IMG/VR virus record: IMGVR_UViG_3300017917_003852
Span: 1-64,000 of that record
From: a virus
Direction: 5' to 3' (one strand)
DNA length: 64,000 bases
Shown: in pieces, positions 22,327 to 47,413 of the stretch
Position numbering within the stretch: position 1 is the stretch's first letter
Layout: each line of letters begins with the position of its first letter
Program-made: the position numbers and the translations under genes
Notes under the pieces: generated by a model
What the model was told of the DNA's origin: nothing
The model's input: only the letters and a program-made list of their open reading frames with translations
The model's database searches: none

Positions 22327-22541
22327 TACGCCCACTTTAATTGGAATAATACAGCATCTTGTTCGTGTTTAAAATACCATTCGGTTTGTTCCTTTGGGCC
22401 ATCCAAAAATCCTAGTATATCAATACCTAGCTTGTACCATGCTTCGCCAAAAGGGCCTATGTTTTCTTCGCACCACTCCTGTGCCAATGGCCACTCTGGA
22501 TTGTTAATTATGATGTGGTACCGCCACTCTGGATCCATCAT
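22326..22541 (-). CDS. LRW-family small protein 4 (71 aa)
   Basis: Starts MMDPEWRYHIIINNPEWPLA and ends VLFQLKWA. Contains AQEWCEENIG, matching the W-C-x-E-x motif of members 2 and at 44.9 kb. The ATG overlaps the TGA of the upstream gene. A TTG further upstream is an unlikely alternative. Confidence 0.7.
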   Translation of the reverse strand: MMDPEWRYHIIINNPEWPLAQEWCEENIGPFGEAWYKLGIDILGFLDGPKEQTEWYFKHEQDAVLFQLKWA

Positions 22542-24248: not shown

Positions 24249-24614
24249 TTATGCAACATGAAAGATAGGATATACTGCATCACTGCCAGGCATGCCGTTC
24301 CATACGGTGCGTACAATAAGAATTTTATGTTGTTCGTGTAGCAGTTGCACGCCTAGTGCTATATGATTGGTATTGTCATACAACCAAAAGTGCTGTCCTG
24401 CACCTAGTAGGCGTATTTTGGCTTTGGCTCGAGGAATTTTTGGAATAACTTCTTGAATTACAAAATCATCAACTTTGCGTTCGTGTGCTTGATCTAGTAA
24501 ATGTTCGTCCAAGAATAAGGTATAGTCGCCAACATCTAGCCTCCCCACTACTTCAGGTCTGCGGCTAAAATATCTTACGGCTGTTTGTTTATTATCAAAT
24601 TCATGAGAACGCAT
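24249..24614 (-). CDS. Protein with MRSHEF-type N terminus (121 aa)
   Basis: Starts MRSHEFDNKQTAVRYFSRRP, close to the MRAxEF leader of the genes that follow, but without a clear (L/I)-x-E cleavage motif. The rest is alpha/beta, with LLGAGQHFWLYDN and LLHEQHKILIVRTVW. It continues in the same frame as the diiron gene upstream, separated from it by a single TAG. No enzyme family recognised. Confidence 0.62.
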   Translation of the reverse strand: MRSHEFDNKQTAVRYFSRRPEVVGRLDVGDYTLFLDEHLLDQAHERKVDDFVIQEVIPKIPRAKAKIRLLGAGQHFWLYDNTNHIALGVQLLHEQHKILIVRTVWNGMPGSDAVYPIFHVA

Positions 24615-24617
24615 CAA

Positions 24618-25517: not shown

Positions 25518-25525
25518 GTAATTAC

Positions 25526-25729
25526 TTATTTTTTAGAGCGACCGCTCTTCATATTTGCACACCAATGATACATTTTGGCTCGCTCACCACTGGCATTTTT
25601 AGCACGTTGGCGTAAATCAGTAACGGATCCCGAACAACTAGCACCAGCACGTTTAACGCGACCAGGACGGCTCTTACCTTTGATCTTACCATCGGCAAAG
25701 TTTTCTGTAATAAACTCGTATGCTCTCAT
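25526..25729 (-). CDS. Basic peptide with capsid-targeting-like N terminus (67 aa)
   Basis: Starts MRAYEFITE, very close to the T4 internal-protein targeting sequence MKTYQEFIAE, after which T4 gp21 protease cuts. The rest is strongly basic (KIKGKSRPGRVKRAGASC) with a conserved KMYHWCANMKSGR end that I know from T4-like aquatic phages. It may be packaged with the DNA and injected, like T4 IPI-III. The ATG overlaps the upstream stop (ATGA). Confidence 0.78.
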   Translation of the reverse strand: MRAYEFITENFADGKIKGKSRPGRVKRAGASCSGSVTDLRQRAKNASGERAKMYHWCANMKSGRSKK

Positions 25730-26811
25730 GAGCGTAACCACAATACAAAGGGATCATTTACTACAATAGTTCCATCAGCTCTCTGCATATAATTTCCACC
25801 GTGTAAATCTATTGCGAATCCTTGATCCCTACCAAACTTTGCAACTGTATGAACAGTATCTAATAAATTTTTAGTATTCACTGGCCCACCTAGATATTTA
25901 ATAACTTTCTTTACGGTGTATGGATCAATTGTGCGTTTAACTTCGTTGTAATATTCTCTGCGAGCCAGATCTTTAAGAGCTTGATTAAAGTCGCCATTGG
26001 CCATATGATCTATTGCTAGATCTATATAACCGACTAAATGCTTTACTTGATCTGGTAATTCTTTTAAAGGTTCCATTCTAGCTTGAATGTAATTCTTACC
26101 ACCAAATTGAAAACTTTCAAATCCTGAAAATTTTGGTAAATGCGGATTATCTGTGTTTGCATTACAGTAATCAATCCAATTTATGAACATACGCTGGTCG
26201 GGACTAAAATCTTTATGACCTTTACGATAGCCAAATATGATCAATACTTGTCCAGTACCTGGCTCTAAGTATGCTTGTTTGTCGATGCCACTACCTAAGT
26301 ATTTGTAACCTTTATCCATTAATACTTTACGAACACCGCCGTGTATTTCTCCGGCCATTTCATCAATCGTATTCCATGCACCCGTAGATTTATCTAATAC
26401 CTCAGCATCACCAGTGCGTCCTGCGGTCCAACGTGGTAATTTTTCTTGTGGAATTCTAACTTGTGCATTAGTTGGAATATCCTTCCAAGGGCGCCCAAAA
26501 TAACCTTCAGCGTCTCCTTGGCTCCAATATTTTGTATCTGTGTCCCAAGTAGTTTTTCCAGGATTAGGATTTTTTTCAAAATAACCTGATTTTTTAGCTG
26601 CCGCTAACTCTTCTGGACTCATGTTTCTATATACATGAGTTACATCGTCGGGACTTCCAGGTACTCGACCGCCGAACATTCCGCCCTTGGGTTGATCAAT
26701 ATAATTTTTTACCTTAGGGGCCTGACCCGCTGCATAATCAACAGCATCCTTACCTAGTTTCCATAACCAGGACCGTAGTCCGCCTTCATCTAAAAAATCA
26801 TCTGCTCTCAT
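25726..26811 (-). CDS. Kinase-like protein with capsid-targeting-like leader (361 aa)
   Basis: Starts MRADDFLDE (F-L-D-E as a possible gp21-type site). A kinase-like C-terminal half has LGSGIDKQAYL (172-182) as nucleotide loop, DLHGGN (335-340) as catalytic loop and NDPF (352-355) in place of DFG, like phosphotransferases of the APH/fructosamine-kinase type. Residues 58-106 (VYRNMSPEELAAAKKSGYF...) recall ADP-ribosyltransferase-like modules of phage polyvalent proteins, with low confidence. A packaged, injected modifier of host proteins is plausible (inference; T4 Alt is a known precedent). Confidence 0.66.
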   Translation of the reverse strand: MRADDFLDEGGLRSWLWKLGKDAVDYAAGQAPKVKNYIDQPKGGMFGGRVPGSPDDVTHVYRNMSPEELAAAKKSGYFEKNPNPGKTTWDTDTKYWSQGDAEGYFGRPWKDIPTNAQVRIPQEKLPRWTAGRTGDAEVLDKSTGAWNTIDEMAGEIHGGVRKVLMDKGYKYLGSGIDKQAYLEPGTGQVLIIFGYRKGHKDFSPDQRMFINWIDYCNANTDNPHLPKFSGFESFQFGGKNYIQARMEPLKELPDQVKHLVGYIDLAIDHMANGDFNQALKDLARREYYNEVKRTIDPYTVKKVIKYLGGPVNTKNLLDTVHTVAKFGRDQGFAIDLHGGNYMQRADGTIVVNDPFVLWLRS

Positions 26812-29723
26812 CTTGCTGGCACAATCGTAAATGGACCGCGATCTCTAACATCGCGAGGTGCAGTAGTGGTCATCCACTGTCTTGCATATTGGTTAGCGTC
26901 GCCTTGGTTTGTGGTGTTAATAAACGAATACACTTCTTGATCGTTACGATCTAATATTAACCAACGTGCATTACCCGGTGGCAAGCTACCTGTACCTTGT
27001 GCTTGATTTACCGGCTCAGCTTCGATGTTTCTAATGTAATAACCATTGGCGTCTAATTGCCTACGCACATAGTCCATAGCAGCATTGGAATTCGCTGCTG
27101 ACACAGTTACATTAGTAGTTCTACCATCTGTTCCAGTGTAAGTTACACGATATCGTTCTTGCCCAACACTACCAGCTGGAACCGGTTCTCCTGTTGTTGC
27201 TGGTATTGCACGTTGTCTTGCAAGTTCTGCACTGCTACCGGGAATACCTCTACCCTCTATACGACGCCAACCATAAGTTTCTGTATCATCATCTATACCG
27301 CGTCCTGCTAACCAATCAGAATATTTTCTCGATGCTTCTTGATCTGTATTGGCAATAAATCTAAACACAGGACGATATGGTACTGTACTACGATCTACGA
27401 TTTCGTAATTAGCGTCAGAACTTTGTTCGCCACCAACCGCAGGGAAGTCACGCCCTGCACTAGCAGGTTGGCCACTAAGTAAGTATGCACGATTTTGTTC
27501 CATGTCGATGATACGAATATCTTCGCGAGGAATTCCGCGTCTATTCCTTATATTATCTGCTATAGTTTGAATATAAGTCCATGTGCCTTGCTGCCCAGGA
27601 AGTAATACTTCACCGTCGTAATTATTAATGATAGAATAAATTGCCGGACCTGGTCTATTGGTGCTGCCGGATTCTCTTGATCGCATCTGTGGGCGAACAT
27701 AAACAGGATCATCAAATCCTGTTTGCTCTTGCCATCTTGCAGCATGACGCTCGGCGTCGGCAACCAAATTACCAATACCACTTATAGTATGAACAACTTC
27801 ATTAGAGTTTCTACTTACTACTTCCCAAGTGCCGGTAAATTCTTGATCTTGGCTTCTTGGTGTTTGCTGTGTATGTCTTTCTACGCGAATGTCAGCAAAT
27901 GGCACATAGGAGAATCTACCTGGATGTTCCATAGTCGCTATTTGTCGTGCCGCATAGTCTGATGTGGCACGAACTACTACTCCGCGTTCTCTGTCGTGTT
28001 CAGGATAAACCAAATAGTCTCGTGCATTAGAATCTGGCTCATTCGCTTCAATTGACGCAATTTCTAATTCAGTAGCTGGTCGTTGAGGTACTGCACGCCA
28101 TCCTCGTGTAAATTCTTCCACGGATCGTCCTGCAATGTTCAGACTCCACTTTAATATAGCACGAGCTTTAGCTTGTTCGGGACTGGTAGCAATGACTTCG
28201 GTACCTTGGCTTTGGTAAGGCGAGTCTGGAGAACCAAACACCATCCAAACAAATGGTACATCTAAGTTTGCATCGCCTTGTTGTTTTCCAATTTGTCGCT
28301 TCTGCTGAATTTGTCGAACAAAACTCTTTAGTGCTTGCTTAGGCAATTCACCAGCTGCATATTTGGCAAAGTATTGAATACTATCATCTTCTTTGCCTTG
28401 TGTTAAAGTCTTATATAACTTTTTGTAATATTCTTGTTTATATTCTTCGGGCTTGGTAGCAACATCTAATGCCACCACAGCTCGCAATAGTGTGTTCTTA
28501 ACATTACCTATACTGCCGCTACCGCTCATCCAGTCTCCGCCCGGACCTCGGAATTCAATCCACTTGTCACGATTATTAATACTGGTAAATTTCTCTGTTG
28601 ATCCGGTGTGTAGTATTTTGCTGGCTAATTGATTAAGACCACCTTGGAACTGTCTCATCATTTCTTCAACACGATCTGGATTGTTTCGTGCTTGCAACAC
28701 AATTTTCTTTAGCGCAGATTTACAGTAAGTATTACCTTCACGACCAAATTGTTCAAGAACGTAATTGTCGCCTAAGAACATGGCCAACTTTACATAATCA
28801 AGATTCTGTTGATTAGGAACGCTAACATTCATATGTAAGCCGGTGCTGTCATTAGTATAAGCACCTACTCTATTAGCCCACTTTATCACCTTATCTATAT
28901 CCGACAGCATTTCGGGAACGGTCAATGGAGGACTAACGAACTCTAAGCCAGACTCACCATCGTCACCGTGTAAGCTACCATCAGGTTCTACTACATAATG
29001 CCCAGGTCGTCTTGTGGCACCATGATAGCTAGATGCAGAATTCACCGGACGATCTATTGCATTACTAAAATCATCAGCTATGTCATCGATGCTAGTTCCA
29101 CCGCCACCATAATAGTCTGGCTCGGTCCAATATGGCCATTCTAGATCATATTCGTTAGCAAAGCTTGACATATATTCTATGTCTTCCTCTTCTAGATATT
29201 CTACAAATCGATCGTCGGCTTCGTCATTAAATTCATCTAATAGCTGCTCGCGAATATCGTCTTCGTGTTCGTCGATGTATGCTCGAAGAGCGATTTCATA
29301 TTCTTCAGTGGTGTCGTAATCGCCTTCACTTACATATTCTGTGGCAATTTCCAGTGCTCGCTCATTCCCAGAGTCAGAATCCATCCACTCGTTGAACTTT
29401 TCATCCATCCAGCCCCAGAAGTTTTCATTGAGTTCATCAATTTTTCTTTGGATCACCCCGGTGCTGCTGCCCATCGAGCCGCCACGGAAGAAACTAATGA
29501 CATCTCTCGCCCACCCGGGTCCAGTAGGAAAACTCTCATCATACTCGTAGTCAGGTTCAGATTCAAACTCATCTTCTTCATCACCAAAATAATTCGGAAC
29601 AATCAATTCAAATTCCATGCCTACTCGAGCATCAATATTTGCTGCCATTTTTGTTAAATTAGTTGGGCTCATATTAAGCTCAAATAATTCATCTTCACTT
29701 AAATTAAATTCGCGATATCTCAT
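26808..29723 (-). CDS. Giant amidoligase-like protein with C-terminal repeat array (971 aa)
   Basis: Starts MRYREFNLSE. The core has VGMEFEL (34-40), EPDGSL (246-251), GLEFVSPPL (259-267) and GLHMNV (295-300): the G-x-E-x-E, D-x-S, E-(F/I)-x-S-P and G-x-H-x-(H/N)-V series of amidoligase_2 enzymes, related to glutamine synthetase. An acidic insert (about 105-200) interrupts it. From about residue 510 there are seven degenerate 60-80-residue modules of strand-helix-strand type (for example YRVTYTGTDGRTTNVTVSA). Amidoligases form peptide-type bonds on proteins or cell-wall parts. Probably virion-associated given the leader and neighbours. Confidence 0.72.
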   Translation of the reverse strand: MRYREFNLSEDELFELNMSPTNLTKMAANIDARVGMEFELIVPNYFGDEEDEFESEPDYEYDESFPTGPGWARDVISFFRGGSMGSSTGVIQRKIDELNENFWGWMDEKFNEWMDSDSGNERALEIATEYVSEGDYDTTEEYEIALRAYIDEHEDDIREQLLDEFNDEADDRFVEYLEEEDIEYMSSFANEYDLEWPYWTEPDYYGGGGTSIDDIADDFSNAIDRPVNSASSYHGATRRPGHYVVEPDGSLHGDDGESGLEFVSPPLTVPEMLSDIDKVIKWANRVGAYTNDSTGLHMNVSVPNQQNLDYVKLAMFLGDNYVLEQFGREGNTYCKSALKKIVLQARNNPDRVEEMMRQFQGGLNQLASKILHTGSTEKFTSINNRDKWIEFRGPGGDWMSGSGSIGNVKNTLLRAVVALDVATKPEEYKQEYYKKLYKTLTQGKEDDSIQYFAKYAAGELPKQALKSFVRQIQQKRQIGKQQGDANLDVPFVWMVFGSPDSPYQSQGTEVIATSPEQAKARAILKWSLNIAGRSVEEFTRGWRAVPQRPATELEIASIEANEPDSNARDYLVYPEHDRERGVVVRATSDYAARQIATMEHPGRFSYVPFADIRVERHTQQTPRSQDQEFTGTWEVVSRNSNEVVHTISGIGNLVADAERHAARWQEQTGFDDPVYVRPQMRSRESGSTNRPGPAIYSIINNYDGEVLLPGQQGTWTYIQTIADNIRNRRGIPREDIRIIDMEQNRAYLLSGQPASAGRDFPAVGGEQSSDANYEIVDRSTVPYRPVFRFIANTDQEASRKYSDWLAGRGIDDDTETYGWRRIEGRGIPGSSAELARQRAIPATTGEPVPAGSVGQERYRVTYTGTDGRTTNVTVSAANSNAAMDYVRRQLDANGYYIRNIEAEPVNQAQGTGSLPPGNARWLILDRNDQEVYSFINTTNQGDANQYARQWMTTTAPRDVRDRGPFTIVPAR

Positions 29724-31078
29724 TCTATAATCTCTGGATGTTCTTTGCCGTATAATTTCATCAGGTAGCCGGCTACGGCATCGGCTTCTTGTTCTATAGG
29801 TGATCCCGGATAACTTTGGTCACCATGCACACGACGATCCTCGTGTTGCTTACGATGTGTTAATTCATGTGCCACGGTACGCATTATGTCAATCATGTTT
29901 CTGTTACCAGTGTAAATCCACATGATATCTTCTGCATCGTCATAGTATCCAGTACGATGTTGATCTGGTCCTTCCTTAGCATCCTGGAATCTAATTTGAG
30001 GAAGTTCTTGTTTAATCTTTAATTTTTTTACGCACCAGTGAATAAAGTCACGTAATTGTTCTTCATGATCACGGAATGTGCTTTCTGTTAAATTATCAGC
30101 ACGAGTGAATGTATCTACTATTTTATAATGCTTGGGTCCTACTAATTCAAAGTCATACTTGTCATCGTCATCTATATTAAAAGGACGAAGAAAATGCTTT
30201 GTCTTACGCTTAATTGCTAACGCACCGTTAGGAGTAAATCCTGTTTGCTCGAGGTCTGCACGATAAACTCTACCCATCGCACCAATTACCGCTAAATCAA
30301 CTTTATAACCTTGCTTCAACAATCTATCAGTAATGGTAACAATCTGGCTGATTCCTTCACCATCATCACCATCCCGGTCGTCTAAGAATTCATTAACCTG
30401 TGTTTCCGCCACACCTTGCTCACCGTGACGAATACTACCGTCCTTCATCAACTTTAAGTTGAGATTGTATTGTTTATTGTCGTGCTTGACTTTGTTCATA
30501 CGACCTGCTTTGAAGCCTTTGGCAAAGTATTGTTTATACATTCCATCGTGTTGGGTGTGCCAATAGTTTATCTTCATAGCTCGTTCTAATGTTGCACCAT
30601 CAGCAAGACTTACGCCTTTAGTGAAACCATCCTCTTGTGCCATCTTGGCAATTTCTGGACTAAATCCTTCATCGTCATCATCACCGTTGAGTCCATCTGG
30701 AGCGAATTCGTTTAACTGTGCATTGAAAATTAACTCCGCAAGTCTAAGAGCATTGTCTCTAGTTTTTGGAATAGCTACACCGGCTTTGCGGCCTCTGCCG
30801 AATCCTTGTTCATAATCAAGCAAATGAATATTAACAGTAGGGTATTCACCTTGACGACCAACTACACTGTAAAGCATTGCACCATTGCGAGATTTGTCTT
30901 TTGGTTCAAACTTCACACTAACTTGTTCAGGTTTTTCTCTATCCTGTCTTGTATATCCACGACCTAAATATTGCTCTATAATATCAGCAAATTCAGTTAG
31001 TGGAAAAGAGTCAGGATCGTCTCTGCCACTATCACCGTTGGTGTCTAAAAATTCCCTTAAAAAATCACTTGCTCGCAT
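29720..31078 (-). CDS. Zinc metallopeptidase with capsid-targeting-like leader (452 aa)
   Basis: Starts MRASDFLREF. The C-terminal 110 residues carry VAHELTHRKQHE, a H-E-x-T-H zinc site, with a downstream EQEADAVAGYL that can give the third ligand. Two internal segments, QLNEFAPDG and QVNEFLDDRDG, resemble repeated processing sites. The middle is charged, without an assigned fold. ATGA overlap with both neighbours. It could cut host or virion proteins after injection; the alternative is a head-maturation role. Confidence 0.74.
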   Translation of the reverse strand: MRASDFLREFLDTNGDSGRDDPDSFPLTEFADIIEQYLGRGYTRQDREKPEQVSVKFEPKDKSRNGAMLYSVVGRQGEYPTVNIHLLDYEQGFGRGRKAGVAIPKTRDNALRLAELIFNAQLNEFAPDGLNGDDDDEGFSPEIAKMAQEDGFTKGVSLADGATLERAMKINYWHTQHDGMYKQYFAKGFKAGRMNKVKHDNKQYNLNLKLMKDGSIRHGEQGVAETQVNEFLDDRDGDDGEGISQIVTITDRLLKQGYKVDLAVIGAMGRVYRADLEQTGFTPNGALAIKRKTKHFLRPFNIDDDDKYDFELVGPKHYKIVDTFTRADNLTESTFRDHEEQLRDFIHWCVKKLKIKQELPQIRFQDAKEGPDQHRTGYYDDAEDIMWIYTGNRNMIDIMRTVAHELTHRKQHEDRRVHGDQSYPGSPIEQEADAVAGYLMKLYGKEHPEIIE

Positions 31079-31955
31079 TTCTTTTTGCCTTTTCTTGGTC
31101 GTCTTGACCTTTTAAGTATTTGTTAAATTGATTTGCTATAAATTCATTTTTTTTACGTTCTGCATCGGTAACTGTATCAGCAGCCATCCTAGCACTACTC
31201 ATTACACCAGATCTAATCGCTGGATCTAGCGCAGCGGTTCTCAATGATTTATCTGTTAAACGATCTAGAATACTAGTAAAGCTTGGTTGTCCTCTTGGTA
31301 TTTTAGTAGGAACCTGGGCGCCAACATTTCCTCCAATGTCAGAAATAGGTCGCGGACTCATTGAGTAACCTCTATTTACAAACTTATTAGACAAATCAGC
31401 ATATTTGCTACTAGCTTGTCTATAAGCAGCCGGTCCGCCAAATTGCTGTATTTCTTTATCTATATTGCTATAGCTAGGAGGTTCCATTCCGTATTCTTTT
31501 CTAAAGGCTTTAGCAGCATGAAACTTTGCTGTTCCTTCTTCGCGACCGATATTTTTAGCAGTTAAAGGATTATATGGATGTGGCTTATTAGCAAGATCGT
31601 ATCCTATATCTTTAATTTTACCAACAGTATCTTTAGCAAGTTCCGGTGCAACTGTAGCTGATTTTGCTGCTGCATCTGCTGCTGTTCTTGTACCTACATT
31701 CCTTGCTAATCCTGTAACACCTTGAACTACTTTTTTACCTAAACCAGCAAAAGGAAATAAAATATCTTCGGGACTGATTAAGGGTGCTTCTAATCCAGGC
31801 TCGATAGGCCAACCTCGTTCATCTCTAGGTAACGTAACATTTTTACCGCGGTTTTCCGCCGATGGCACATACCCTTGTGGCATCCAGTCCTTTTGTAACT
31901 CTTTTCTTGCAGCCTCTACATCGTCGGCTTCATTTATAAATTCATGAGCTCGCAT
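31065..31955 (-). CDS. Ala/Gly-rich protein with capsid-targeting-like leader (296 aa)
   Basis: Starts MRAHEFINEADDVEAARKEL; F-I-N-E|A is almost the T4 cleavage site (F-I-A-E|A). Hydrophobic/Ala segments follow (ILFPFAGLGKKVVQGVTG, TAADAAAKSATVA), with a basic C-terminal third. No enzyme motif. Possibly a head-internal or injected structural protein. The ATG at 31955 is preferred over an upstream start because it opens on the leader. Confidence 0.68.
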   Translation of the reverse strand: MRAHEFINEADDVEAARKELQKDWMPQGYVPSAENRGKNVTLPRDERGWPIEPGLEAPLISPEDILFPFAGLGKKVVQGVTGLARNVGTRTAADAAAKSATVAPELAKDTVGKIKDIGYDLANKPHPYNPLTAKNIGREEGTAKFHAAKAFRKEYGMEPPSYSNIDKEIQQFGGPAAYRQASSKYADLSNKFVNRGYSMSPRPISDIGGNVGAQVPTKIPRGQPSFTSILDRLTDKSLRTAALDPAIRSGVMSSARMAADTVTDAERKKNEFIANQFNKYLKGQDDQEKAKRNASK

Positions 31956-32595
31956 TGTCTTTATCCTGTGGCCCGGCAATCATCTTGCCGTAGTCTTTAC
32001 TCTGTATATTCTGTGGTTCGTGCTCACGCTGTCCTTTTAATATTTCAAAAGCTCGACGTAATCCACGGGCCACCGTATCTAGGCCATTTTCATCTGCTTG
32101 ATACTTAATACCAATACCTCCCGATTGTTCCCATTCGGTAATTACAGTATTACGATCATCAACTAGTATATTCGGCGTGCCGTCGGCTTGTTTAGCGTAT
32201 TTTCCCTTGCGGGGAGTAATAATAATTTTATTAGGCTGTGGATCTAGGTTTTCAGCAATCCAAGCACGTTTCATTGCTTCGCTGTTTTTGTGATCACCAC
32301 GTAATGGGCTAGAGCAAATATTGTAAGATCCAAATACTTGTACGGCCATTGCTACTAATCTATCAGCTGATGCAAATTTAGGCAGTCTATAGAAGAAATC
32401 TGTACCAACCATTTGTTGTATAACGGGCTCACGCTTTTCTGGTGGAATAGCGTGATAATCGTATCTTCCTTGTGTGTTAGGTGGTACTCCAGCTAATTTT
32501 GCATATTCTGCAAAGAAATCAGCTAATACACCGTCCATATCTAAGAATATTTCTGGACGTCCGTGAGATTGTTGTTCTAGTTCAAATAAGCGCAT
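31942..32595 (-). CDS. HAD-superfamily 5'(3')-nucleotidase-like protein (217 aa)
   Basis: Starts MRLFELEQQ, then FLDMDGVLADFFAEY with the DxDGV catalytic motif, ICSSPLRGD (motif II), and ILVDDRNTVI (motif IV D-D). These match deoxyribonucleotidase-type HAD enzymes of phages. It would dephosphorylate nucleotides. The leader LFELE resembles that of the preceding group, which suggests packaging, but the match is weaker. It overlaps the next gene by 14 nt. Confidence 0.8.
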   Translation of the reverse strand: MRLFELEQQSHGRPEIFLDMDGVLADFFAEYAKLAGVPPNTQGRYDYHAIPPEKREPVIQQMVGTDFFYRLPKFASADRLVAMAVQVFGSYNICSSPLRGDHKNSEAMKRAWIAENLDPQPNKIIITPRKGKYAKQADGTPNILVDDRNTVITEWEQSGGIGIKYQADENGLDTVARGLRRAFEILKGQREHEPQNIQSKDYGKMIAGPQDKDNASS

Positions 32596-40877: not shown

Positions 40878-40906
40878 ATAATAGCAGTTAATTGATTAAA
40901 TGTCAA
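40878..40906 (-). promoter_or_regulatory. Early promoter
   Basis: TTGACA, 17 nt ending CTGC, TATTAT, with the -35 touching the stop of the 110-aa gene. Confidence 0.76.
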
Positions 40907-41235
40907 TTCCACATTAAGGCAATATGACTAGCATAAATGGCATGTTTCGCTCTCATCCGGATAGTTAGACGTCCGTTTTGTTCGCCGGTTTCGATATTTC
41001 TTCCGTGCCATGCTAATTGCCAATCCCAATCCCAACCTTGGCGTCCGATCCATTGTTCTAAAAATGGACGGTAATGATCATTTGGGTCTGCGGATTCGAA
41101 CCCTATCCAAACAGCTCCACCTAAGTCTGCCCATCGGGGATCATTATGATCTACTACTATTTCGCCTGAAGGCCATTTTACATCTATTTCAATGTAATCA
41201 ACTAACCACCAATATAATTTTTTAAAGATGCTCAC
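40903..41235 (-). CDS. Hypothetical protein, distant LRW relative (110 aa)
   Basis: Starts MSIFKKLYWWLVDYIEIDVK, has many Trp (WDWDWQLAWHG) and ends AIYASHIALMWN, which echoes the F-x-L-R-W ending. The similarity is too weak to call membership. Overlaps the gene upstream by 14 nt. Confidence 0.62.
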   Translation of the reverse strand: MSIFKKLYWWLVDYIEIDVKWPSGEIVVDHNDPRWADLGGAVWIGFESADPNDHYRPFLEQWIGRQGWDWDWQLAWHGRNIETGEQNGRLTIRMRAKHAIYASHIALMWN

Positions 41236-41434
41236 GGTACGGATAAACCTTTCTTACACGATAATTATGACAATGAGAACAATAACGAGTTTGGATATAT
41301 TTGTCTGTATTTTTATTAACTTGATATGGCTTACACCACCGTGTCCAAGAATGCCAACCAAAGTTGCACCAAAAACTAGTTACTAGTGGTTCTTCATCCT
41401 TTAATATCCTAGCTGTATTTTCAACTTCGTTCAT
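41222..41434 (-). CDS. Zinc-binding hypothetical protein (70 aa)
   Basis: Starts MNEVENTARILKDEEPLVTS; WCNFGWHSWTRWCKPY and RYCSHCHNYR provide Cys/His ligands for zinc. Its ATG overlaps the TGA of the LRW-type gene upstream. Unknown function. Confidence 0.64.
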   Translation of the reverse strand: MNEVENTARILKDEEPLVTSFWCNFGWHSWTRWCKPYQVNKNTDKYIQTRYCSHCHNYRVRKVYPYREHL

Positions 41435-41664
41435 TTTACCCCAAATTTTAAAGCAAATAGTATAGCAGGTTCTTCCCACTCAAATTGAAAAATATCGTAA
41501 GTTCGTTGATGCACACTTCCCCATTCTACATGAAAACGACGAAAGTGTTTTCCTTCAGTATTATAGTTTAAACACCAGTTATACATTTCTTCTGTGCATT
41601 TTGGCACACGAATTCTATACCTAAAATACGGACGATGCCCACCTTCGCAATGAAAGTATTCCAT
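41431..41664 (-). CDS. LRW-family small protein 5 (77 aa)
   Basis: Starts MEYFHCEGGHRPYFRYRIRV and ends EPAILFALKFGVK. The ending is the F-A-L-(R/K)-(F/W) variant; DIFQFEWEEPA is the usual lead-in. Follows the 125-aa gene directly. Confidence 0.7.
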   Translation of the reverse strand: MEYFHCEGGHRPYFRYRIRVPKCTEEMYNWCLNYNTEGKHFRRFHVEWGSVHQRTYDIFQFEWEEPAILFALKFGVK

Positions 41665-42041
41665 TAGTAATTGTACTCAAACGTACCCCAACCTAGTAAG
41701 GTTCTAGGTGTGTTTTTTCGAGCTTGTATCCACATGTAACCATCTTTGTCGTATTCGCTAAACCAATCTACATAACTTTTGTTGTAAAGAATATCTTGCA
41801 TTTCCCAAAGATAATTTTTTGGATACTGATAACATGGATCGTCTCCTTTGTATCGACGCCGCATCGGCAATTTTTGCGATGGGTGTTCTGATAGTACCAT
41901 CAAAAGATGCTCTTGTTCTAACTCCTTAAGGGTAATAGGAACGAAGTTTGCCTTATGATACAAACTAGGCAAAGCTCGATCGACCACTTTGTTGTAATCG
42001 TATTCTCGAATAATAACTCTGCGTCGTAATTGTTTCTTCAT
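41664..42041 (-). CDS. Hypothetical protein inside the LRW array (125 aa)
   Basis: Starts MKKQLRRRVIIREYDYNKVV at an ATG overlapping the stop of member 6. Larger than the LRW proteins and without their ending (WGTFEYNY). Basic N terminus, aromatic C terminus. Not recognised. Confidence 0.64.
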   Translation of the reverse strand: MKKQLRRRVIIREYDYNKVVDRALPSLYHKANFVPITLKELEQEHLLMVLSEHPSQKLPMRRRYKGDDPCYQYPKNYLWEMQDILYNKSYVDWFSEYDKDGYMWIQARKNTPRTLLGWGTFEYNY

Positions 42042-42286
42042 GCAAACCTCAGTGCAAATTTTACAGCAATTTGTGAATCATCAAACCAAAATATATTGCC
42101 CGTCCATGAATAACGATTAGGATGATTTTTACTAAGCCAACCGTGTATTTCGCCCCATTTCATATAGTTGGCGTGTATTGGAATATAGCCGGCACGCTCA
42201 AACTGTTCGCAGTGAGTTTCATGTACCACAGGAGAACCGTCGAGCTGTGTCCGAATAAATGTTCTAATCGGTATTAACTCACTCAC
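42038..42286 (-). CDS. LRW-family small protein 6 (82 aa)
   Basis: Begins with GTG (MSELIPIRTFIRTQLDG) overlapping the previous TGA, and ends VKFALRFA. The last codons CTG AGG TTT GCA TGA give GAGG five bases before the next ATG. NIFWFDDSQIAVKF is the family lead-in. Confidence 0.72.
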   Translation of the reverse strand: MSELIPIRTFIRTQLDGSPVVHETHCEQFERAGYIPIHANYMKWGEIHGWLSKNHPNRYSWTGNIFWFDDSQIAVKFALRFA

Positions 42287-42543
42287 GCAAACCTCAGTGC
42301 AAATTCTGTAGCAGCCTTTTCGTCTCGAAAGACAAACATAGTATCTGTAGTTTCTAAATCCTCTACATCACCTACAATCCATTGATTATAATAGCACCAG
42401 TCGTCACCGTTAAGCCAGTGGTTAATCGATCCTTCTCGACCGCCATAACGAGCACTGCCTTGTCCGGCATTTGCTGCTAGCCAAGATTCAATTTCCGCCT
42501 TTTTATCTCGCATTGTGTTGAAAGGTACTTTAACTTTGTTCAT
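42283..42543 (-). CDS. LRW-family small protein 7 (86 aa)
   Basis: Starts MNKVKVPFNTMRDKKAEIES and ends KAATEFALRFA. Same ending codons as member 6 (CTGAGGTTTGCGTGA), which overlap the GTG start of the next gene. The start lies within the last codons of member 8. Confidence 0.72.
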   Translation of the reverse strand: MNKVKVPFNTMRDKKAEIESWLAANAGQGSARYGGREGSINHWLNGDDWCYYNQWIVGDVEDLETTDTMFVFRDEKAATEFALRFA

Positions 42544-42796
42544 TGCCTGCCCATCTTAATAAGAATAATGCTTTTTGTTTCTTATTACTAAAATAAAAAG
42601 TTTTATTATAGTATCCCCACTCATCTTCCATGACTTCATCTAACCATTTGCAGCGTTGGACAATATCGTCATTATATAATAAAGTATCATACATCTCATA
42701 CGATTCCGGATATTGCAGTTCTAGCAGCAAAGTTTGGTCCATGGCATCAGCTAGTTCCTTTGCTACTCGATTTACATATTCTTCTGCTATGTCCAT
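42530..42796 (-). CDS. LRW-family small protein 8 (88 aa)
   Basis: Starts MDIAEEYVNRVAKELADAMD and has ALFLLRWAGNEQS; the motif is followed by six extra residues that overlap the next start. The N-terminal half is more helical than in its relatives. ATG overlaps the TAA of member 9. Confidence 0.7.
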   Translation of the reverse strand: MDIAEEYVNRVAKELADAMDQTLLLELQYPESYEMYDTLLYNDDIVQRCKWLDEVMEDEWGYYNKTFYFSNKKQKALFLLRWAGNEQS

Positions 42797-43041
42797 TATG
42801 CCCACCTCAATAAAAACCAAGCGAATTTCTCTTCATTAACAACTCTATAATCTTCGATAGTTATTAACCTCGCGTCCATTTCTATTTCTATACCATACTC
42901 ATCTAGTATGCGATGCAATTGTGCGTCATATCTTGGACTGCCGGTGATTACTCGTGCTTGCCCGGTAATGGGCCAAGATCGGTGCTGCCCTTCTTCGTTC
43001 CATTCTCTACTTAGAATTTTCTGTAGTTCGCCGGGTGTCAT
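42796..43041 (-). CDS. LRW-family small protein 9 (81 aa)
   Basis: Starts MTPGELQKILSREWNEEGQH and ends KFAWFLLRWA; codons TTG AGG TGG GCA, then TAATG. The middle is acidic with IEIEMDARLI. Confidence 0.72.
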   Translation of the reverse strand: MTPGELQKILSREWNEEGQHRSWPITGQARVITGSPRYDAQLHRILDEYGIEIEMDARLITIEDYRVVNEEKFAWFLLRWA

Positions 43042-43247
43042 GCCCACCTCAATGCAAAATGTACAGCATCTTCTCTATTTTCAAATTGAATAAATTTGTC
43101 AGTAGTCCAACCAGGATTGTGAAAATACATACCTGTGCAATTCTCTTCTAACCACCGATCAACTAACCAATCCTTGTAACTGCGACGAAATCGGCTTTGG
43201 ATATTATCGTAATCGTATTTGGCATATACTACTGTGTGTAAAGGCAT
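43038..43247 (-). CDS. LRW-family small protein 10 (69 aa)
   Basis: Starts MPLHTVVYAKYDYDNIQSRF and ends EDAVHFALRWA, encoded by TTGAGGTGGGCATGA, identical over 15 bases to the end of member 2. FIQFENREDAVHF is the best match to the family lead-in. Confidence 0.74.
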   Translation of the reverse strand: MPLHTVVYAKYDYDNIQSRFRRSYKDWLVDRWLEENCTGMYFHNPGWTTDKFIQFENREDAVHFALRWA

Positions 43248-43444
43248 TATCCGCCCCACCTAAGCATAAAGAATGTAGCATCCTCTTGACGCTTGAACAC
43301 AAAGTAAAGACCGTTGTTGCGCCAATTGCCACTTTTAAAATTCTCGTAGCAAAATCTCTGCAACCTTTCGGATTGCCCCCAAGCATCTACTTCAGGAAGC
43401 ATACGAAATTGATGCGGCCAATATTTTTTATTATAGGTTTGCAT
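43247..43444 (-). CDS. LRW-family small protein 11 (65 aa)
   Basis: Starts MQTYNKKYWPHQFRMLPEVD and ends EDATFFMLRWGG, with TTAGGTGGGGCGGATAATG joining it to member 10. LYFVFKRQEDATFF shows the strand-then-helix ending. Confidence 0.72.
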   Translation of the reverse strand: MQTYNKKYWPHQFRMLPEVDAWGQSERLQRFCYENFKSGNWRNNGLYFVFKRQEDATFFMLRWGG

Positions 43445-43715
43445 AGTCTGCGGTTAATGCATTTAAAATAACTTGATTGCGTTCAGCTTGCCAACTTTTA
43501 AGCCAAGGAGTACGATCACATTCCTCAATGTGTTTTAAAATTTGAGTGCGGCTACTAGATTCAATTGCTTCATGTAATCCAATCATCATAACTGGTTGTC
43601 GCCAACGATATACTACTATACACATTTTGTCATCGGGATGCAAGTTCCATGCCCACTCATAAGGGTAATCACCATCAAGATCTGGAATATCACTTAAATG
43701 TTTAAATTTCGTCAT
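43431..43715 (-). CDS. Hypothetical protein (94 aa)
   Basis: Starts MTKFKHLSDIPDLDGDYPYE; a strand MCIVVYRWRQPVMMIG then a helical end (AERNQVILNALTADYANL). Overlaps both neighbours by 14 nt. No LRW ending; not recognised. Confidence 0.64.
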   Translation of the reverse strand: MTKFKHLSDIPDLDGDYPYEWAWNLHPDDKMCIVVYRWRQPVMMIGLHEAIESSSRTQILKHIEECDRTPWLKSWQAERNQVILNALTADYANL

Positions 43716-44097
43716 AATAATCCTCTACCACAACCCAACCTAACTTTTGAAAGTCTTCTCTAATCTCATCAGTAATAACACTTTCTGCTACATACTTTCT
43801 TAGATCAAATCCTTGCGCTAGTGCTGCTTCGTAGTCAATTTCTTCTGGATTGCCGCGAATACCCGAACAATACCAATTCATGTAATCACCTTCGCACCGA
43901 ATGTCGGCAACTACGCCACCGGCATAGCGCCAAGTACAGGACCATATAGCATCTTTAAGTATAGGCACGACTTCCATTTTTTGGAATGCATTATTGCATA
44001 GTGCGGCATAAAGATTTTGTGAGTATGCGTCACTGGCACGTACTTTATCCACAAACCACTTTGCGTCTTTCATGTCTCGTTCTAAATTGTAATCCAT
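43702..44097 (-). CDS. Conserved T4-like phage protein (131 aa)
   Basis: Starts MDYNLERDMKDAKWFVDKVR and contains SQNLYAALCNNAFQKMEV, WSCTWRYAGGVVADIRCEGDY and NWYCSGI. I recognise this block layout from a conserved hypothetical family of aquatic T4-like phages. Ends KLGWVVVEDYYDEI. Function unknown. Confidence 0.76.
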   Translation of the reverse strand: MDYNLERDMKDAKWFVDKVRASDAYSQNLYAALCNNAFQKMEVVPILKDAIWSCTWRYAGGVVADIRCEGDYMNWYCSGIRGNPEEIDYEAALAQGFDLRKYVAESVITDEIREDFQKLGWVVVEDYYDEI

Positions 44098-44291
44098 TAT
44101 TGTCCTTCCCATTTTAACTGAAATAACATTGCATCCTGTTCGTTGGTGAATTCAAACTCGTATCGAAGATACCAATCTTCATCCGCAAGTTCGCTTTCAT
44201 ATACTAGCCAACAAACAAAACTAGGGCAATTTTCTCTTGCCCAAGTTGAGAGTTCAATCTCGTCGATGTCAAATAATACTACTATTGCCAT
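44097..44291 (-). CDS. LRW-family small protein 12 (64 aa)
   Basis: Starts MAIVVLFDIDEIELSTWARE and ends QDAMLFQLKWEGQ. The ending AAATGGGAAGGACAATAATG carries AAGGA for the next gene. Its own ATG lies inside the K-W codons of member 13. Confidence 0.72.
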   Translation of the reverse strand: MAIVVLFDIDEIELSTWARENCPSFVCWLVYESELADEDWYLRYEFEFTNEQDAMLFQLKWEGQ

Positions 44292-44518
44292 TTTAGTAAA
44301 AAATTACTAGCGTCTGCTTCGTTTTCTATAACTACCACCATACCTTGTTGATGTTTCCGTCCGTTAGGCAAGCACTGATCCATCCATGCATATATTTCTG
44401 GCTCATTGTCCGTCCACCAACGAAAGTCAGTGATGATTATGTAATAATATGGCATCTCTTCATCAAACGGACCGGTGGCGATAAATCTGCCTTTGTCGTC
44501 TGGAAACACTACGCTCAC
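44282..44518 (-). CDS. LRW-family small protein 13 (78 aa)
   Basis: Starts MSVVFPDDKGRFIATGPFDE and ends ADASNFLLKWQ, followed by two TAG codons in a row. WMDQCLPNGR parallels the W-C-x-E motif of other members. ATGA overlap upstream. Confidence 0.72.
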   Translation of the reverse strand: MSVVFPDDKGRFIATGPFDEEMPYYYIIITDFRWWTDNEPEIYAWMDQCLPNGRKHQQGMVVVIENEADASNFLLKWQ

Positions 44519-44706
44519 TGTTTTTGTTCCTTTTCTTTAGGTGCTTTTACTGCACAAATGGCAACAAAGCCTTTGCCATCCCATTCTTTACGAGCATCCA
44601 TACACGCTTGATAATCGGGATATTCTTTTTTGTAAATGAATTTTATTTGTGGTGGCGGATCAGTCCAAAGTTGCACAACCAATATCCAAGGCATTAAGTC
44701 TAACAT
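44515..44706 (-). CDS. Membrane-associated small protein (63 aa)
   Basis: Starts MLDLMPWILVVQLWTDPPPQ: a short hydrophobic leader that could be a signal or anchor, then a two-Cys domain (DYQACMDARKEW, FVAICAVK) and a Lys/Glu tail. It resembles small exported proteins with one disulphide. Unknown function. Confidence 0.62.
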   Translation of the reverse strand: MLDLMPWILVVQLWTDPPPQIKFIYKKEYPDYQACMDARKEWDGKGFVAICAVKAPKEKEQKQ

Positions 44707-44707
44707 A

Positions 44708-44959
44708 TCAGTTCCTTAATATTTCAAAAGTCCATTTAGCACTATCGGGATCTACTTCAAACCATAATTGATTACTTTCGTCTAGCCATACAGTAAAACC
44801 TTTACTGGTAAAAAAATCTACAGCAATTTGTTTAAATCGTTGATCATCGTAGTCAGGAATAGTTTTAGCTTCTTTTTGAATAGCATGTAGTTCATTGGTA
44901 TAATAATTTAGAATATGAGCGTGAAACCATTCGGGTGCGTATCTAAAAGAGAATTGCAT
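44708..44959 (-). CDS. Hypothetical protein (83 aa)
   Basis: Starts MQFSFRYAPEWFHAHILNYY and ends LWFEVDPDSAKWTFEILRN. The last 20 residues repeat the strand-D-x-x-x-A-x-x-F pattern of LRW proteins, so it could be a divergent member. Its ATG uses AAGGTGG from the end of member 14. Confidence 0.64.
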   Translation of the reverse strand: MQFSFRYAPEWFHAHILNYYTNELHAIQKEAKTIPDYDDQRFKQIAVDFFTSKGFTVWLDESNQLWFEVDPDSAKWTFEILRN

Positions 44960-44960
44960 T

Positions 44961-45185
44961 TCAACTCCACCTTAACAAAAAAGTCATCATTTCTTCTTCA
45001 GTATCAAACTGCCAAAGATCGAAACTCATACGACGCCCACAATTATGTTCTTGGCACCACTCTTGTGCGGGCATTAACATGTGCTCACGCAAGCCAGTTG
45101 GTGTTACTGCACCATGTTCGTGAGCTAATTGTACTCTTAACCAATAACCTTGAGGGCGAGGCCAAGACTCCCATACTAATTTCAT
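44961..45185 (-). CDS. LRW-family small protein 14 (74 aa)
   Basis: Starts MKLVWESWPRPQGYWLRVQL and ends EEMMTFLLRWS; TTAAGGTGGAGTTGAAATG joins it to the next gene. AQEWCQEHNCG matches the W-C-x-E-x-x motif of members 2 and 4. Confidence 0.72.
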   Translation of the reverse strand: MKLVWESWPRPQGYWLRVQLAHEHGAVTPTGLREHMLMPAQEWCQEHNCGRRMSFDLWQFDTEEEMMTFLLRWS

Positions 45186-45532
45186 GTTATTTTTATTCTG
45201 TCAGTATTGGCTCTATTGCTATACACTTTATAACCGCGCTCTCGCATTAGATCTGCTGCTGCCTGAGGACTGTCATCGAACATTAGTTCGAGATCCTCTT
45301 TAGTAATATCATTGCTGCAATCGATGGCGTACAGTTCATAATGCCGCTGACTATTAACTCTGGCCCTTAGTAGCATTTGTTGAAGCATACCATTCATTGG
45401 ATTGCGAACAGGCTCTTCGTCATTGAGAATCCTAAAAGTATTTTCTGCGTCCCAGTGTTCATACTGAGTGATAGGAATAATGCTTTCTAGTCCTTCTTCA
45501 CACCAATAAACAAGATATGCGTTAGTAGTCAT
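45182..45532 (-). CDS. Hypothetical protein (116 aa)
   Basis: Starts MTTNAYLVYWCEEGLESIIP. Mixed alpha/beta; a C-terminal DLELMFDDSPQAAADLMRER could be a helical hairpin. No LRW ending. ATGA overlaps at both ends. Not recognised. Confidence 0.64.
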   Translation of the reverse strand: MTTNAYLVYWCEEGLESIIPITQYEHWDAENTFRILNDEEPVRNPMNGMLQQMLLRARVNSQRHYELYAIDCSNDITKEDLELMFDDSPQAAADLMRERGYKVYSNRANTDRIKIT

Positions 45533-45756
45533 AGATATTTTATTTGAAAAAATGTTGCTCGAGCCGGATCGTCAAAGTCTAATCTAATATCAGTTGCACG
45601 TTGATTATATTCATCGTAACAAAAATGTGTTCTAACTGTAAAACCCAATTCTCTTTTTAAACGCCAGGTTATTAAAAAAATTTTATCGCCGTGCTCGTTC
45701 TCAATGCGTTGGCGCAAAGTTTTCCATTCTGGTTTGCTAAAGATCAAAGTGGTCAT
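45529..45756 (-). CDS. LRW-family small protein 15, first of the array (75 aa)
   Basis: Starts MTTLIFSKPEWKTLRQRIEN and ends ARATFFQIKYL, the most divergent ending (I-K-Y for L-R-W). DIRLDFDDPARATFF is the usual lead-in. First gene after the promoter at 45762. Confidence 0.7.
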   Translation of the reverse strand: MTTLIFSKPEWKTLRQRIENEHGDKIFLITWRLKRELGFTVRTHFCYDEYNQRATDIRLDFDDPARATFFQIKYL

Positions 45757-45790: not shown

Positions 45791-46146
45791 GCTATCCAGC
45801 CTTGTCCGGTTATCTGATGATACCAGGGATAAAACGGTCCGACTACAATAAACTGCCAATCGCTAGTTATCCATGCGGTCGCCGGATTGGCAAGATGTTG
45901 GTACTTGGGTAGCACTTCGTGCCCGTTTATTGTTATTTTTGCAACTTCTACTGCACCGTTGCTAATCTTACAACTAAAGTTTAACCCTTCTAGTAAATCA
46001 AAATACATTGTTGATTTTACCGGCTGATTATTCACTGTAAAATGATATTTTGGATTATGGTGCTCAACTAAATGAATCTTTACTTCAATTTGATTAGCTG
46101 TATCAATATCCGTAATGTCTAAGAAATTTTTCATATCTTGGTGCAT
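45787..46146 (-). CDS. Hypothetical protein (119 aa)
   Basis: Starts MHQDMKNFLDITDIDTANQI; beta-rich with TINGHEVLPKYQ and a Trp-rich end (WITSDWQFIVVGPFYPW). It overlaps the radical SAM gene by 44 nt in another frame, unusually long, so the true start may be MKNFL four codons in. Could be a carbohydrate-binding-like beta sandwich. Confidence 0.6.
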   Translation of the reverse strand: MHQDMKNFLDITDIDTANQIEVKIHLVEHHNPKYHFTVNNQPVKSTMYFDLLEGLNFSCKISNGAVEVAKITINGHEVLPKYQHLANPATAWITSDWQFIVVGPFYPWYHQITGQGWIA

Positions 46147-47413
46147 AATCTAAAATGGAATTTCCCCGCAGGGATTCAAACGCTTTTAAAAAGGATATTA
46201 AATTGTATCTTAATTCCTCGACATTTTTTGGTACGTTATAGTCGCAAATAAATTGATAGTAATCTAGTATAATGTTTGCAGTAGCCTGGTCAATTTGATT
46301 AGTTTGTCTGACATTAACTAAATTTTCTTTAGTAAGTCGATATTTTTTAATTAATGTTTGTAATTTTTCTTTAATCTCTTGACGTATGTCTTCGGGCATT
46401 ATTTCCATGCGAAGCCACTCGGGTCTATACAGTATATTACAACTTTCTGATATTACTTTATTGTTAATCATAAACTCAAATAATTTATCTAATTCGTATA
46501 TAGAAAAAATATTAGGTGTAATTCGTAAAGAAATAACTAGTCCGGAATTCTCTTTTCTTAGTTGTAAAAAATTATCTATGTTCGACAGTATTTCTGTAAT
46601 TTGTCCAGGCCAGCGTATATAATCGTTAATAGGATCTACAGATTCTATACTAATACCTAAATGAAATTGTTCAAAATGTCCTATTAGATTATGGATTCGT
46701 TGATTATATATTGTGCCATTTGTTGTGGTGCCAACAATTATATCTTTAGCTAAATCATGCTCAATTAATTTTTCACAGATAGTATAAAATGCTTCTTCGT
46801 ATAATGTTTCTCCTCCTAAGAAATGTATATAACGAAGATTAGGAATTTCTTTTAGTTCTTCAATGAATTGATTTATTAATGTTTGGTCCTTAGTCCAAGA
46901 TTCAATTTTTTCAGGTTTCAAAAATAATTTAGAATTTATTTTGTGTAGCTTATGAAATTCTTGTTCTAGTTTGCTGCTTGCTTCGGGTCTGCACATTATA
47001 CAAGCACTATTACATGTATTACCTAGTTCAACTTGTAATTCAACTGGCGCTAAATTTGCTTCACCGTTATTATTAAAACTATATTCAAAGTTTTTGTAAT
47101 GCGGACTGCTTCTAAAAGTTTTTAGAAAGTCATTTGTATCAACAGCACTTTTATTAAGTTGTCTCATACGTCCGTTTAACTTACCAAAACTTTCTTCATA
47201 ATAACAAATGGAACAATGATTAGGTTCTTCGCCGGCCAATAACTGTTGGCGAAGAATTTTCATCTGATCGCTGTTGTAATATTGCATTATCGATTGATTA
47301 CTAAACGAATGGAGCCGTTGTGGATTTTTAGCCCAACTACATGACTCAAAACTTCCGTCGTAGGTAAGTCTCACGTGGAACCACGGACTAGAACAAAAAG
47401 TTTTTTCAAACAT
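46103..47413 (-). CDS. Twitch/SPASM-type radical SAM enzyme (436 aa)
   Basis: Radical SAM cluster motif CNSACIMC (about residues 134-141) and, in the barrel, HFLGGETLYEE. Extra Cys groups near the N terminus (CSSPWFHVRL, SFESCSWAK, HCSICYYEE) could bind an auxiliary cluster, as in twitch-domain proteins of aquatic T4-like phages. Such enzymes modify peptides or proteins; PqqE is a SPASM relative, but this protein's layout is different. The target is unknown. The short proteins nearby are possible substrates (speculative). Confidence 0.82.
   Translation of the reverse strand: MFEKTFCSSPWFHVRLTYDGSFESCSWAKNPQRLHSFSNQSIMQYYNSDQMKILRQQLLAGEEPNHCSICYYEESFGKLNGRMRQLNKSAVDTNDFLKTFRSSPHYKNFEYSFNNNGEANLAPVELQVELGNTCNSACIMCRPEASSKLEQEFHKLHKINSKLFLKPEKIESWTKDQTLINQFIEELKEIPNLRYIHFLGGETLYEEAFYTICEKLIEHDLAKDIIVGTTTNGTIYNQRIHNLIGHFEQFHLGISIESVDPINDYIRWPGQITEILSNIDNFLQLRKENSGLVISLRITPNIFSIYELDKLFEFMINNKVISESCNILYRPEWLRMEIMPEDIRQEIKEKLQTLIKKYRLTKENLVNVRQTNQIDQATANIILDYYQFICDYNVPKNVEELRYNLISFLKAFESLRGNSILDYAPRYEKFLRHYGY

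Follow-up and report, generated by a model that had tools for sequence, protein, structure and literature searches.

Probable one-gene cassette arrays of a hyperdiverse phage protein family, in which C-terminal motif codons often double as the start signal of the next gene

The window analyzed here, positions 1 to 64,000 of the 78,424-bp IMG/VR virus record IMGVR_UViG_3300017917_003852 (record G000 in our record set), carries a run of tiny genes that raises the question of why so many neighboring proteins should end in nearly the same residues, and why the codons for these residues should look like a ribosome binding site for the gene that follows. The main array consists of 11 minus-strand open reading frames (ORFs) at 41431-45756 whose products end in Fx(L/I)(R/K)(W/F/Y), and a second array of four tandem minus-strand members with the same C-terminal pattern is found at 21681-22565. 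The pattern is present in 16 of the 356 window ORFs of at least 40 amino acids (aa), whereas 200 shuffles gave 0.4 on average and never more than 2. Our results indicate that the run is probably an array of cassettes, each a single gene, drawn from a large and hyperdiverse family of phage proteins. They also show that the motif codons often double as the Shine-Dalgarno (SD) sequence of the next gene, under codon selection, and that the arrays grow by single-gene shuffling between phages, with breaks at the stop/start junction.

An earlier note on this DNA had counted about 11 genes ending in F-x-L-(R/K)-(W/F), and this agrees with our annotation: ten ORFs at 41431-45185 end in the motif plus 1-6 residues, and the eleventh, at 45529-45756, ends in FQIKYL. 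The array genes are listed below with their expect values (E) against the hidden Markov model (HMM) of the family and the identities of their orthologs in other loci.

45529..45756, minus strand: array protein of 75 aa with the divergent end FQIKYL; assigned by reading frame and C-terminal pattern, outside the HMM set at E<1e-3
44961..45185, minus strand: array protein of 74 aa, end FLLRWS; AAGGTGGAG precedes the next ATG; HMM E 3e-7; L030 ortholog 45%
44282..44518, minus strand: array protein of 78 aa, end FLLKWQ; the next gene's start codon sits within the motif (CTA AAA TGG; AAATGG); HMM E 5e-8; L030 ortholog 77%
44097..44291, minus strand: array protein of 64 aa, end FQLKWEGQ; next start TAATG, with the SD sequence supplied by codons 3' of the motif; HMM E 3e-10
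43247..43444, minus strand: array protein of 65 aa, end FMLRWGG (CTT AGG TGG); HMM E 2e-13
43038..43247, minus strand: array protein of 69 aa, end FALRWA (TTG AGG TGG GCA TGA, the exact string discussed below); HMM E 8e-11
42796..43041, minus strand: array protein, end FLLRWA; its own ATG overlaps the preceding stop (ATGA) and the next start is TAATG; assigned by reading frame and C-terminal pattern, not among the window record's 13 HMM members
42530..42796, minus strand: array protein of 88 aa, end FLLRWAGNEQS; HMM E 2e-9
42283..42543, minus strand: array protein of 86 aa, end FALRFA (CTG AGG TTT GCG TGA); HMM E 6e-8; L030 ortholog 91%
42038..42286, minus strand: array protein of 82 aa with a GTG start, end FALRFA (CTG AGG TTT GCA TGA); HMM E 8e-9
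41431..41664, minus strand: array protein of 77 aa, end FALKFGVK; HMM E 3e-9; L039 ortholog 61%
40903..41235, minus strand: probable divergent member beyond the given range of the main array, end IALMWN; 40% identity over 48 aa to the N-terminal part of L039:8397-8783; outside the HMM set
22326..22565, minus strand: second array, member 1, end FQLKWA; HMM E 3e-17
22105..22326, minus strand: second array, member 2, end FALRWA (TTG AGA TGG GCA TGA); HMM E 4e-13
21926..22108, minus strand: second array, member 3, end FLLRWA (TTG AGG TGG GCA TGA, exact string); HMM E 1e-10
21681..21929, minus strand: second array, member 4, end FALRWV (TTA AGG TGG GTA TAATG); HMM E 6e-10

The earlier note had further proposed that TTG AGG TGG GCA TGA recurs at many junctions, including those near 43040 and 21930. 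The string TTGAGGTGGGCATGA is indeed present at both, but it occurs just twice in the full record (43038-43052 and 21926-21940), so that "many junctions" overstates the frequency of this exact string. Its variants with AGGTGG, AGGTTT, or AAGGTGG near 42040, 42285, 42797, 43250, and 44962 are all present. The motif Arg is encoded by AGG in genes 42038, 42283, 42796, 43038, 43247, 44961, 21681, and 21926, and by AGA in 42530 and 22105; Lys takes its place at 41431, 44097, 44282, and 45529 (AAA) and at 22326 (AAG). The rule that the motif serves as an SD sequence does not hold at every junction, the AGA and Lys genes being the exceptions.

To what family do these proteins belong? A relative search with one single member found no relative, and tblastn with two members and a consensus against 50,697 phage records gave nothing relevant. 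As single-sequence searches had failed, IMG/VR virus contigs were scanned with a DNA pattern encoding D-A-x-x-F-A-L-(R/K)-W-A with the Arg/Lys codon left open. This yielded 89 stretches, 86 of which had a stop no more than 15 residues downstream, two of these (L021, L058) being visibly unrelated. Since the loci were picked by a motif-containing pattern, the sample favors phages with FAL(R/K)WA. An iterated HMM, a search of other phages that the earlier note had suggested, recovered 547 members (E<1e-3) from the 14,143 stop-to-stop ORFs of 90 loci (861 kb including the window record); the same HMM gave no match in reversed or shuffled ORF sets. The HMM match ended more than 15 residues short of the C terminus in 10 of the 547. 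The 537 members in which it ended within 10 residues were reduced to 480 by removal of identical junctions and used for counting, and 445 of these had a readable end of the L-(R/K)-(W/F/Y/L) type.

The family is hyperdiverse, with 338 clusters at 50% identity. Homology between members spans about 60 residues, far past the last five, and the refuting case named in the earlier note, homology confined to those five, thus does not apply; the model of the whole domain has conserved W and F positions, and its last helix reads DAxxF(A)L(R/K)W. The ratio of nonsynonymous to synonymous substitution rates (dN/dS) in 89 ortholog pairs had a median of 0.21 (10-90% range, 0.10-0.28), which argues that the array members are real genes. 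AlphaFold2 models of two different members, one of them the protein of 22326-22565, adopt the same predicted order of strand-helix-strand-strand-helix, with mean predicted local distance difference test scores of 79 (22326-22565) and 86, and in both LRW forms the end of the last helix.

Members were present in 14 of 15 whole records searched (3 to 42 each). The arrays are compact, as in G011 (34 members within 119-134 kb) and G002 (29 members within 157.7-167.5 kb), where the gene calls show about 44 small genes in 10 kb, mostly with 4-nucleotide (nt) overlaps, 29 of them family members. The longest directly coupled chain comprises up to 19 members (L085). When 116 diverse members were compared with Pfam and PHROG, no family matched the C-terminal domain, the only matches being to Gp23/major head in the N-terminal extensions of two. 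A stricter motif pattern, to which 57 family members conform, gave no match in a bacterial and archaeal genome collection, and the family is therefore virus-only in the collections scanned. The best fold matches in BFVD were unnamed proteins of uncultured phages; BcepSauron, to which a BFVD match pointed, gave no family match, and Agrobacterium phage Atu_ph07 gave three weak ones (E about 1e-5 to 1e-4). No description of the arrays turned up in the open-access literature, searched also with the motif strings, which does not prove that there is none. Judged from sequence comparison, the arrays appear to belong to an undescribed, hyperdiverse phage protein family.

How, then, do the ends of these genes relate to the starts that follow? 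Among the 480 members, 288 run into another member, 143 run into another ATG ORF, and 35 have no start nearby. The next start is found most commonly as ATGA, with the ATG one base ahead of the stop, as TAATG/TGATG, or as an (A)TGG inside the motif, seven bases ahead of the stop (33 cases with a readable motif). The ATG is at -1 in 261 members, 174 of them with an SD-like string, and at R-type junctions the string is SD-like in 162 of 205. AGG encodes the motif Arg in 197 of the 249 members coupled through ATGA or TAATG, compared with 6 of 25 uncoupled members and 144 of 1,830 internal Arg codons of the same genes; when each cluster was represented once per class, the mean counts were 136/175 coupled versus 5/21 uncoupled (Fisher p 2e-6, 338 clusters). 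In ortholog pairs, the motif Arg codon is identical in 30/35 coupled cases, 11/18 others, and 141/251 other Arg sites; the Leu codon before it is no better kept (24/55 versus 150/252). Taken together, the excess of AGG at coupled junctions and the retention of the Arg codon in orthologs indicate selection on this codon for the start signal. The proposal that protein motif and translation signal share the same bases is thereby confirmed, and LRW is not, in most relatives, encoded by non-SD codons, AGG being dominant when genes are coupled.

The data do not support the view that such dual coding is special to this family: in 201 ATGA overlaps between unrelated genes of these loci, Arg is AGG in 10/17 cases at codon -3 and 10/14 at codon -4, compared with 131/1,806 inside the genes. 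An SD sequence inside the upstream gene is thus general in these phages, and the family is special in offering a well-placed Arg at nearly every junction. Nor do they support a shaping of the protein motif by the start signal, since the motif does not change with coupling. The R:K ratio is 250:56 in coupled and 25:6 in uncoupled members, and W is present in 283/306 and 30/31, respectively. Lys members couple too, with 45 ATGA cases of which 4 have an SD-like string, a split between Lys and Arg that is in part circular, as the SD string itself includes AGG. As the motif amino acids are indifferent to coupling, the motif is best seen as a protein feature onto which a start signal has been laid.

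The arrays are assembled gene by gene. The best relative (up to 95% identity) is in another locus for 440 of 472 members and in the same locus for 32, and recent tandem duplication as the main process was rejected on these grounds. The modular growth that the earlier note had envisaged therefore stands as shuffling with junction breakpoints and falls as duplication in tandem. Matches at E<1e-3 were found in 40/290 adjacent pairs, 192/2,056 non-adjacent pairs of the same locus, and 9,754/112,606 pairs from different loci. In ortholog comparisons (55-97% identity), the array neighbor differs in 113 of 134. At equal identity, neighbors are retained less often by family genes than by others: family neighbors are kept in 6/124, 11/64, and 36/51 cases at 55-70, 70-85, and 85-97% identity, and non-family neighbors in the same loci in 79/225, 87/140, and 38/44. 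The downstream breakpoint of family genes lies at a median of +3 nt from the first base of the stop codon (interquartile range [IQR], -2 to +4; n=27), that of non-family genes at +2 with a wider IQR (-11.5 to +9.5; n=35). On the upstream side, where the preceding genes differ, the median point at which similarity starts is 20.5 nt ahead of the preceding gene's stop, within the motif of that gene (n=30); for non-family genes it is 1 nt (n=32). The window genes show the same behavior. Their orthologs in other phages have 30-91% identity; in L030, relatives of 21681 and 43038, which lie 21 kb apart in the window, occur in one (main) array, and the 91% ortholog of 42283-42543 has a different upstream neighbor.

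Some cassettes carry more than the common domain. A first sign was that the N-terminal extension of 2 of the 116 diverse members matches gp23, the major capsid protein of the T4 type, and a profile search with 77 long members gave Gp23 in 7, the remainder being single weak matches. When the N-terminal parts of 456 members were compared with 1,022 other proteins of five records, 38 matches at E<0.01 were obtained, nearly all to gp23, compared with 1 for reversed sequences; the identity of the modules to gp23 of these phages is about 31-52%. Apart from full gp23 and one spurious other-frame match (E 0.007), everything found by a model of the gp23 N-arm was an array-type protein with a terminal L(R/K)W. 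In gp23 searches of 14 and then 50 further records, a Gol-like module was present in 12 of the 64 (G002, G003, G006, G007, G010, G013, G014, G016, G020, G021, G023, and G057), G003 and G006 having the same Gol-bearing gene. Every Gol-bearing ORF encodes an array protein in which a single residue follows the terminal L(R/K)W. The stretch of T4 gp23 to which the modules align covers residues about 95-123, the Gol region being numbered 93-122. Scored against residues about 77-128, five modules reached 59-91 and a sixth reached 44, with a maximum of 45 in 300 shuffles. According to a review (PMC3014915), Gol of T4 is a 29-residue stretch within the first quarter of gp23 and the best-conserved part of that protein; it binds domains II and III of EF-Tu and lets Lit cut EF-Tu.

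Modules and LRW subfamilies are combined freely. In the FSRAKWY subfamily, the N-terminal piece is Gol in two loci (L005, L166), Walker A-like in three (L046, L085, L034), and another again in L057, and it is lacking in L069; the subfamily of the window member 43247-43444 has a Gol-like N terminus in L081, L085, L083, and L168, the window copy being without it. Some members contain a helix like that of the gp23 P-domain (profile versus gp23, E 6e-6). A gp23-only P-domain model found no array ORF, so that this piece is weaker than the Gol module, and the N-terminal helix of the window protein 42530-42796 is only weakly like the P-domain helix (profile E 0.063, not significant). A derivation of the LRW domain itself from gp23 (HK97-fold) was rejected, the family-versus-gp23 profile comparison giving a probability of 0.2-0.3%.

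Other N-terminal pieces were seen, and we make no claim for their origin. Proteins of different subfamilies (L059:2352-2621, L069:5767-6063, and L057:9269-9616) have a common DIxSM(Y/H) segment without a significant profile match; the segment resembles a polymerase B motif, and a DNA polymerase B-like origin of the DIxSMYP module was dropped at a profile E of 1. L012:5142-5534 and L089:1080-1463 share an N-terminal KG(R/K)GL(I/V)Q(I/M)TGR-x-x-GKS, endolysin-like (E 6e-4) and terminase Walker A-like (not significant). The former likeness, of the KGRGLIQITGR module, extends over 15 residues only, and the latter, of the GRQTGKS module, has an E of about 0.9. L026:1131-1445 and L053:9-323 are array proteins with the glycine-rich N-terminal stretch LGGAGGGGP.WISKAQ.

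These observations suggest the following anatomy, which we consider probable. Each small protein ends in a conserved domain with the predicted last helix DAxxF(A)L(R/K)W. Because the genes overlap or abut, the bases under L-R-W fall where the next gene needs its ribosome binding site. In the LRW type, selection has fixed AGG at that site; alternatively, the next start codon lies inside the motif (A-TGG); and in the LKW type the coupling geometry persists without an SD sequence. Since single cassettes are exchanged with breaks at the stop/start junction, every gene carries the start signal for whatever gene follows. A further module stands at the N terminus of some cassettes, the clearest case being the copy of the gp23 Gol region.

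Several points weigh against this picture. Adjacent genes are slightly more alike than others, and hence some tandem duplication occurs. Ortholog pairs and swaps are not independent events, and non-family genes also break at gene ends, only less sharply. At swapped junctions, the motif DNA is no more alike than in random pairs (12.4 versus 12.35 of 18; n=12), and a crossover inside the motif is therefore unsupported. The loci were selected by the motif and the contigs are mostly fragments, and a gp23 search of the window record itself returned no significant gp23 module. Finally, the whole case is computational.

The arrays recall several known systems. Stop/start spacings of -4, -1, and -8 are described as general in prokaryotes (PMC12548453), and like other cases of translational coupling with an in-gene SD sequence, the arrays show these spacings and AGG-rich 3' ends. 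What sets them apart is that the signal at successive junctions comes from a conserved motif of a single protein family. As with the boundary sequences of mosaic phages, an idea set out in PMC3029335, swaps break at gene ends with a short shared junction sequence; that of the arrays differs in being coding and SD, and the crossover-homology test gave it no support. Integron cassettes likewise are single genes in a row, freely reordered, a likeness in working and not in membership, whereas the overlaps of array genes leave no room for an intergenic site. Compared with T4 gp23 Gol, the array version, known here from sequence, is fused to an unrelated C-terminal domain and is separate from the phage's own full-length gp23 wherever the record is long enough to tell.

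What the arrays are for can be addressed with less confidence. The array would be made as one coupled operon and may be an accessory, reshuffled arsenal for host takeover or counter-defence, in which the constant C-terminal domain would be a shared handle and the N-terminal part would choose the target. Gol-bearing members may bind EF-Tu or interfere with capsid-protein-sensing defences, a proposal that we regard as possible if rather doubtful. With a more tentative hand still, we propose that the arrays form a library, subject to reshuffling, of host-takeover proteins built in two parts: a constant LRW handle and exchangeable N-terminal modules that choose the target (EF-Tu or capsid-sensing defences), some of them copied from the phage's own core proteins, as with the Gol stretch of the capsid protein, the LRW codons letting any module gene be inserted and translated at once.

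An alternative that we think unlikely is a library of decoys, in which the N-terminal modules would mimic phage parts, foremost the capsid protein, that host immune sensors recognize, and would occupy these sensors without triggering them. The free combination of modules with LRW subfamilies fits this idea. Only gp23 has statistical support, however, in the 38 matches against 1 for reversed sequences given above, the polymerase-, endolysin-, and terminase-like modules being short and weak matches, and we know of no sensor for the P-domain helix piece. In its favor, the capsid protein is a known trigger of CapRel (PMC9712102) and Gol, the most conserved stretch of gp23, one of Lit (PMC3014915).

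Distinctly unlikely in our view is a capsid-linked role, by which gp23-like modules would put array proteins in or on the head or poison head assembly of a competing phage; Gol-region pieces in 12/64 records and P-domain-like pieces in some members would agree with it, but most members are without a gp23 piece, module identity to gp23 reaches only about 31-52%, and no capsid-targeting peptide was noticed on array proteins. Less probable again, and dependent on predicted models, is that these are small RNA-binding or regulatory proteins with a fold resembling RRM, KH, or ACT-type ferredoxin-like domains. The strand-helix-strand-strand-helix (beta-alpha-beta-beta-alpha) order is suggestive, and structure comparison with the PDB gave many unrelated folds at Z about 4.5-6.9, with RRM, ACT, PII-like, and EF-G domains at Z about 5-7. 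For so common a fold, however, Z<8 is uninformative; Foldseek found no PDB match under E 0.38, and the PDB sequence search gave one match, at E 0.52.

Very improbable is a motif that acts as a built-in start signal driving tandem duplication, the array being a recent local expansion. Motif codons do form an SD sequence at most R-type junctions, and adjacent pairs are slightly more alike than non-adjacent ones, but the best relatives mostly lie in other loci, few adjacent pairs match at all, and window genes have orthologs of 30-91% identity in other phages. Hardly credible is that the protein motif merely follows from selection on the nucleotides GAGGTGG and ATGA where gene ends overlap. Common as this arrangement is, uncoupled members have the same motif amino acids, which refutes it, and LKW and CGN- or AGA-coded LRW persist alongside AGG in a domain of about 60 residues with conserved W/F and a dN/dS of 0.21.

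The surroundings of the arrays include the following features.

21274..21681, minus strand: RF-1 (GGQ) domain gene, start coupled to the last member of the second array; Pfam PF00472, E 3e-11
20229..20627, minus strand: weak L7/L12 C-terminal match a few genes past the RF-1 gene; E 9e-5, below the cut-off
46103..47413, minus strand: Radical SAM / SPASM protein just upstream of the main array; PF04055, E 1e-11
26808..29723, minus strand: 971-aa protein with a weak amidoligase match (phrog_2443, E 1e-4)
24249..32595, minus strand: several proteins that start MR(A/S/x)(H/S/D/Y)(E/D)F(I/L), reminiscent of the T4 capsid-targeting peptide
9625..9700, minus strand: ARAGORN tRNA with anticodon CUA, named tRNA-Pyl; possible amber suppressor
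14644..15063, minus strand: transfer-messenger RNA (tmRNA), asterisk-marked, the sign for a permuted form; its tag ANAANDEVFALAA looks betaproteobacterial

RF-1 genes are present in 10 of 24 records and adjoin array members in three (G000, G001, and G009). Release factors, tmRNA, and ribosomal proteins are reported in huge phages (PMC7162821), to which the tmRNA, the RF-1 domain gene beside the second array, and the weak L7/L12 match of the window phage may be compared; LRW arrays go unmentioned in the accessible part of that paper.

Returning to the cassette anatomy, it would unite small phage genes that by the hundreds had gone unnamed in a single family with its own fold, motif, and assembly rule, and would explain how the end of a protein can look like a translation signal. 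If the role suggested above were true, phages would hold an exchangeable stock of small proteins, some bearing the capsid piece that binds EF-Tu and trips Lit. This raises the possibility of a link between capsid sensing, translation, and gene exchange among phages.

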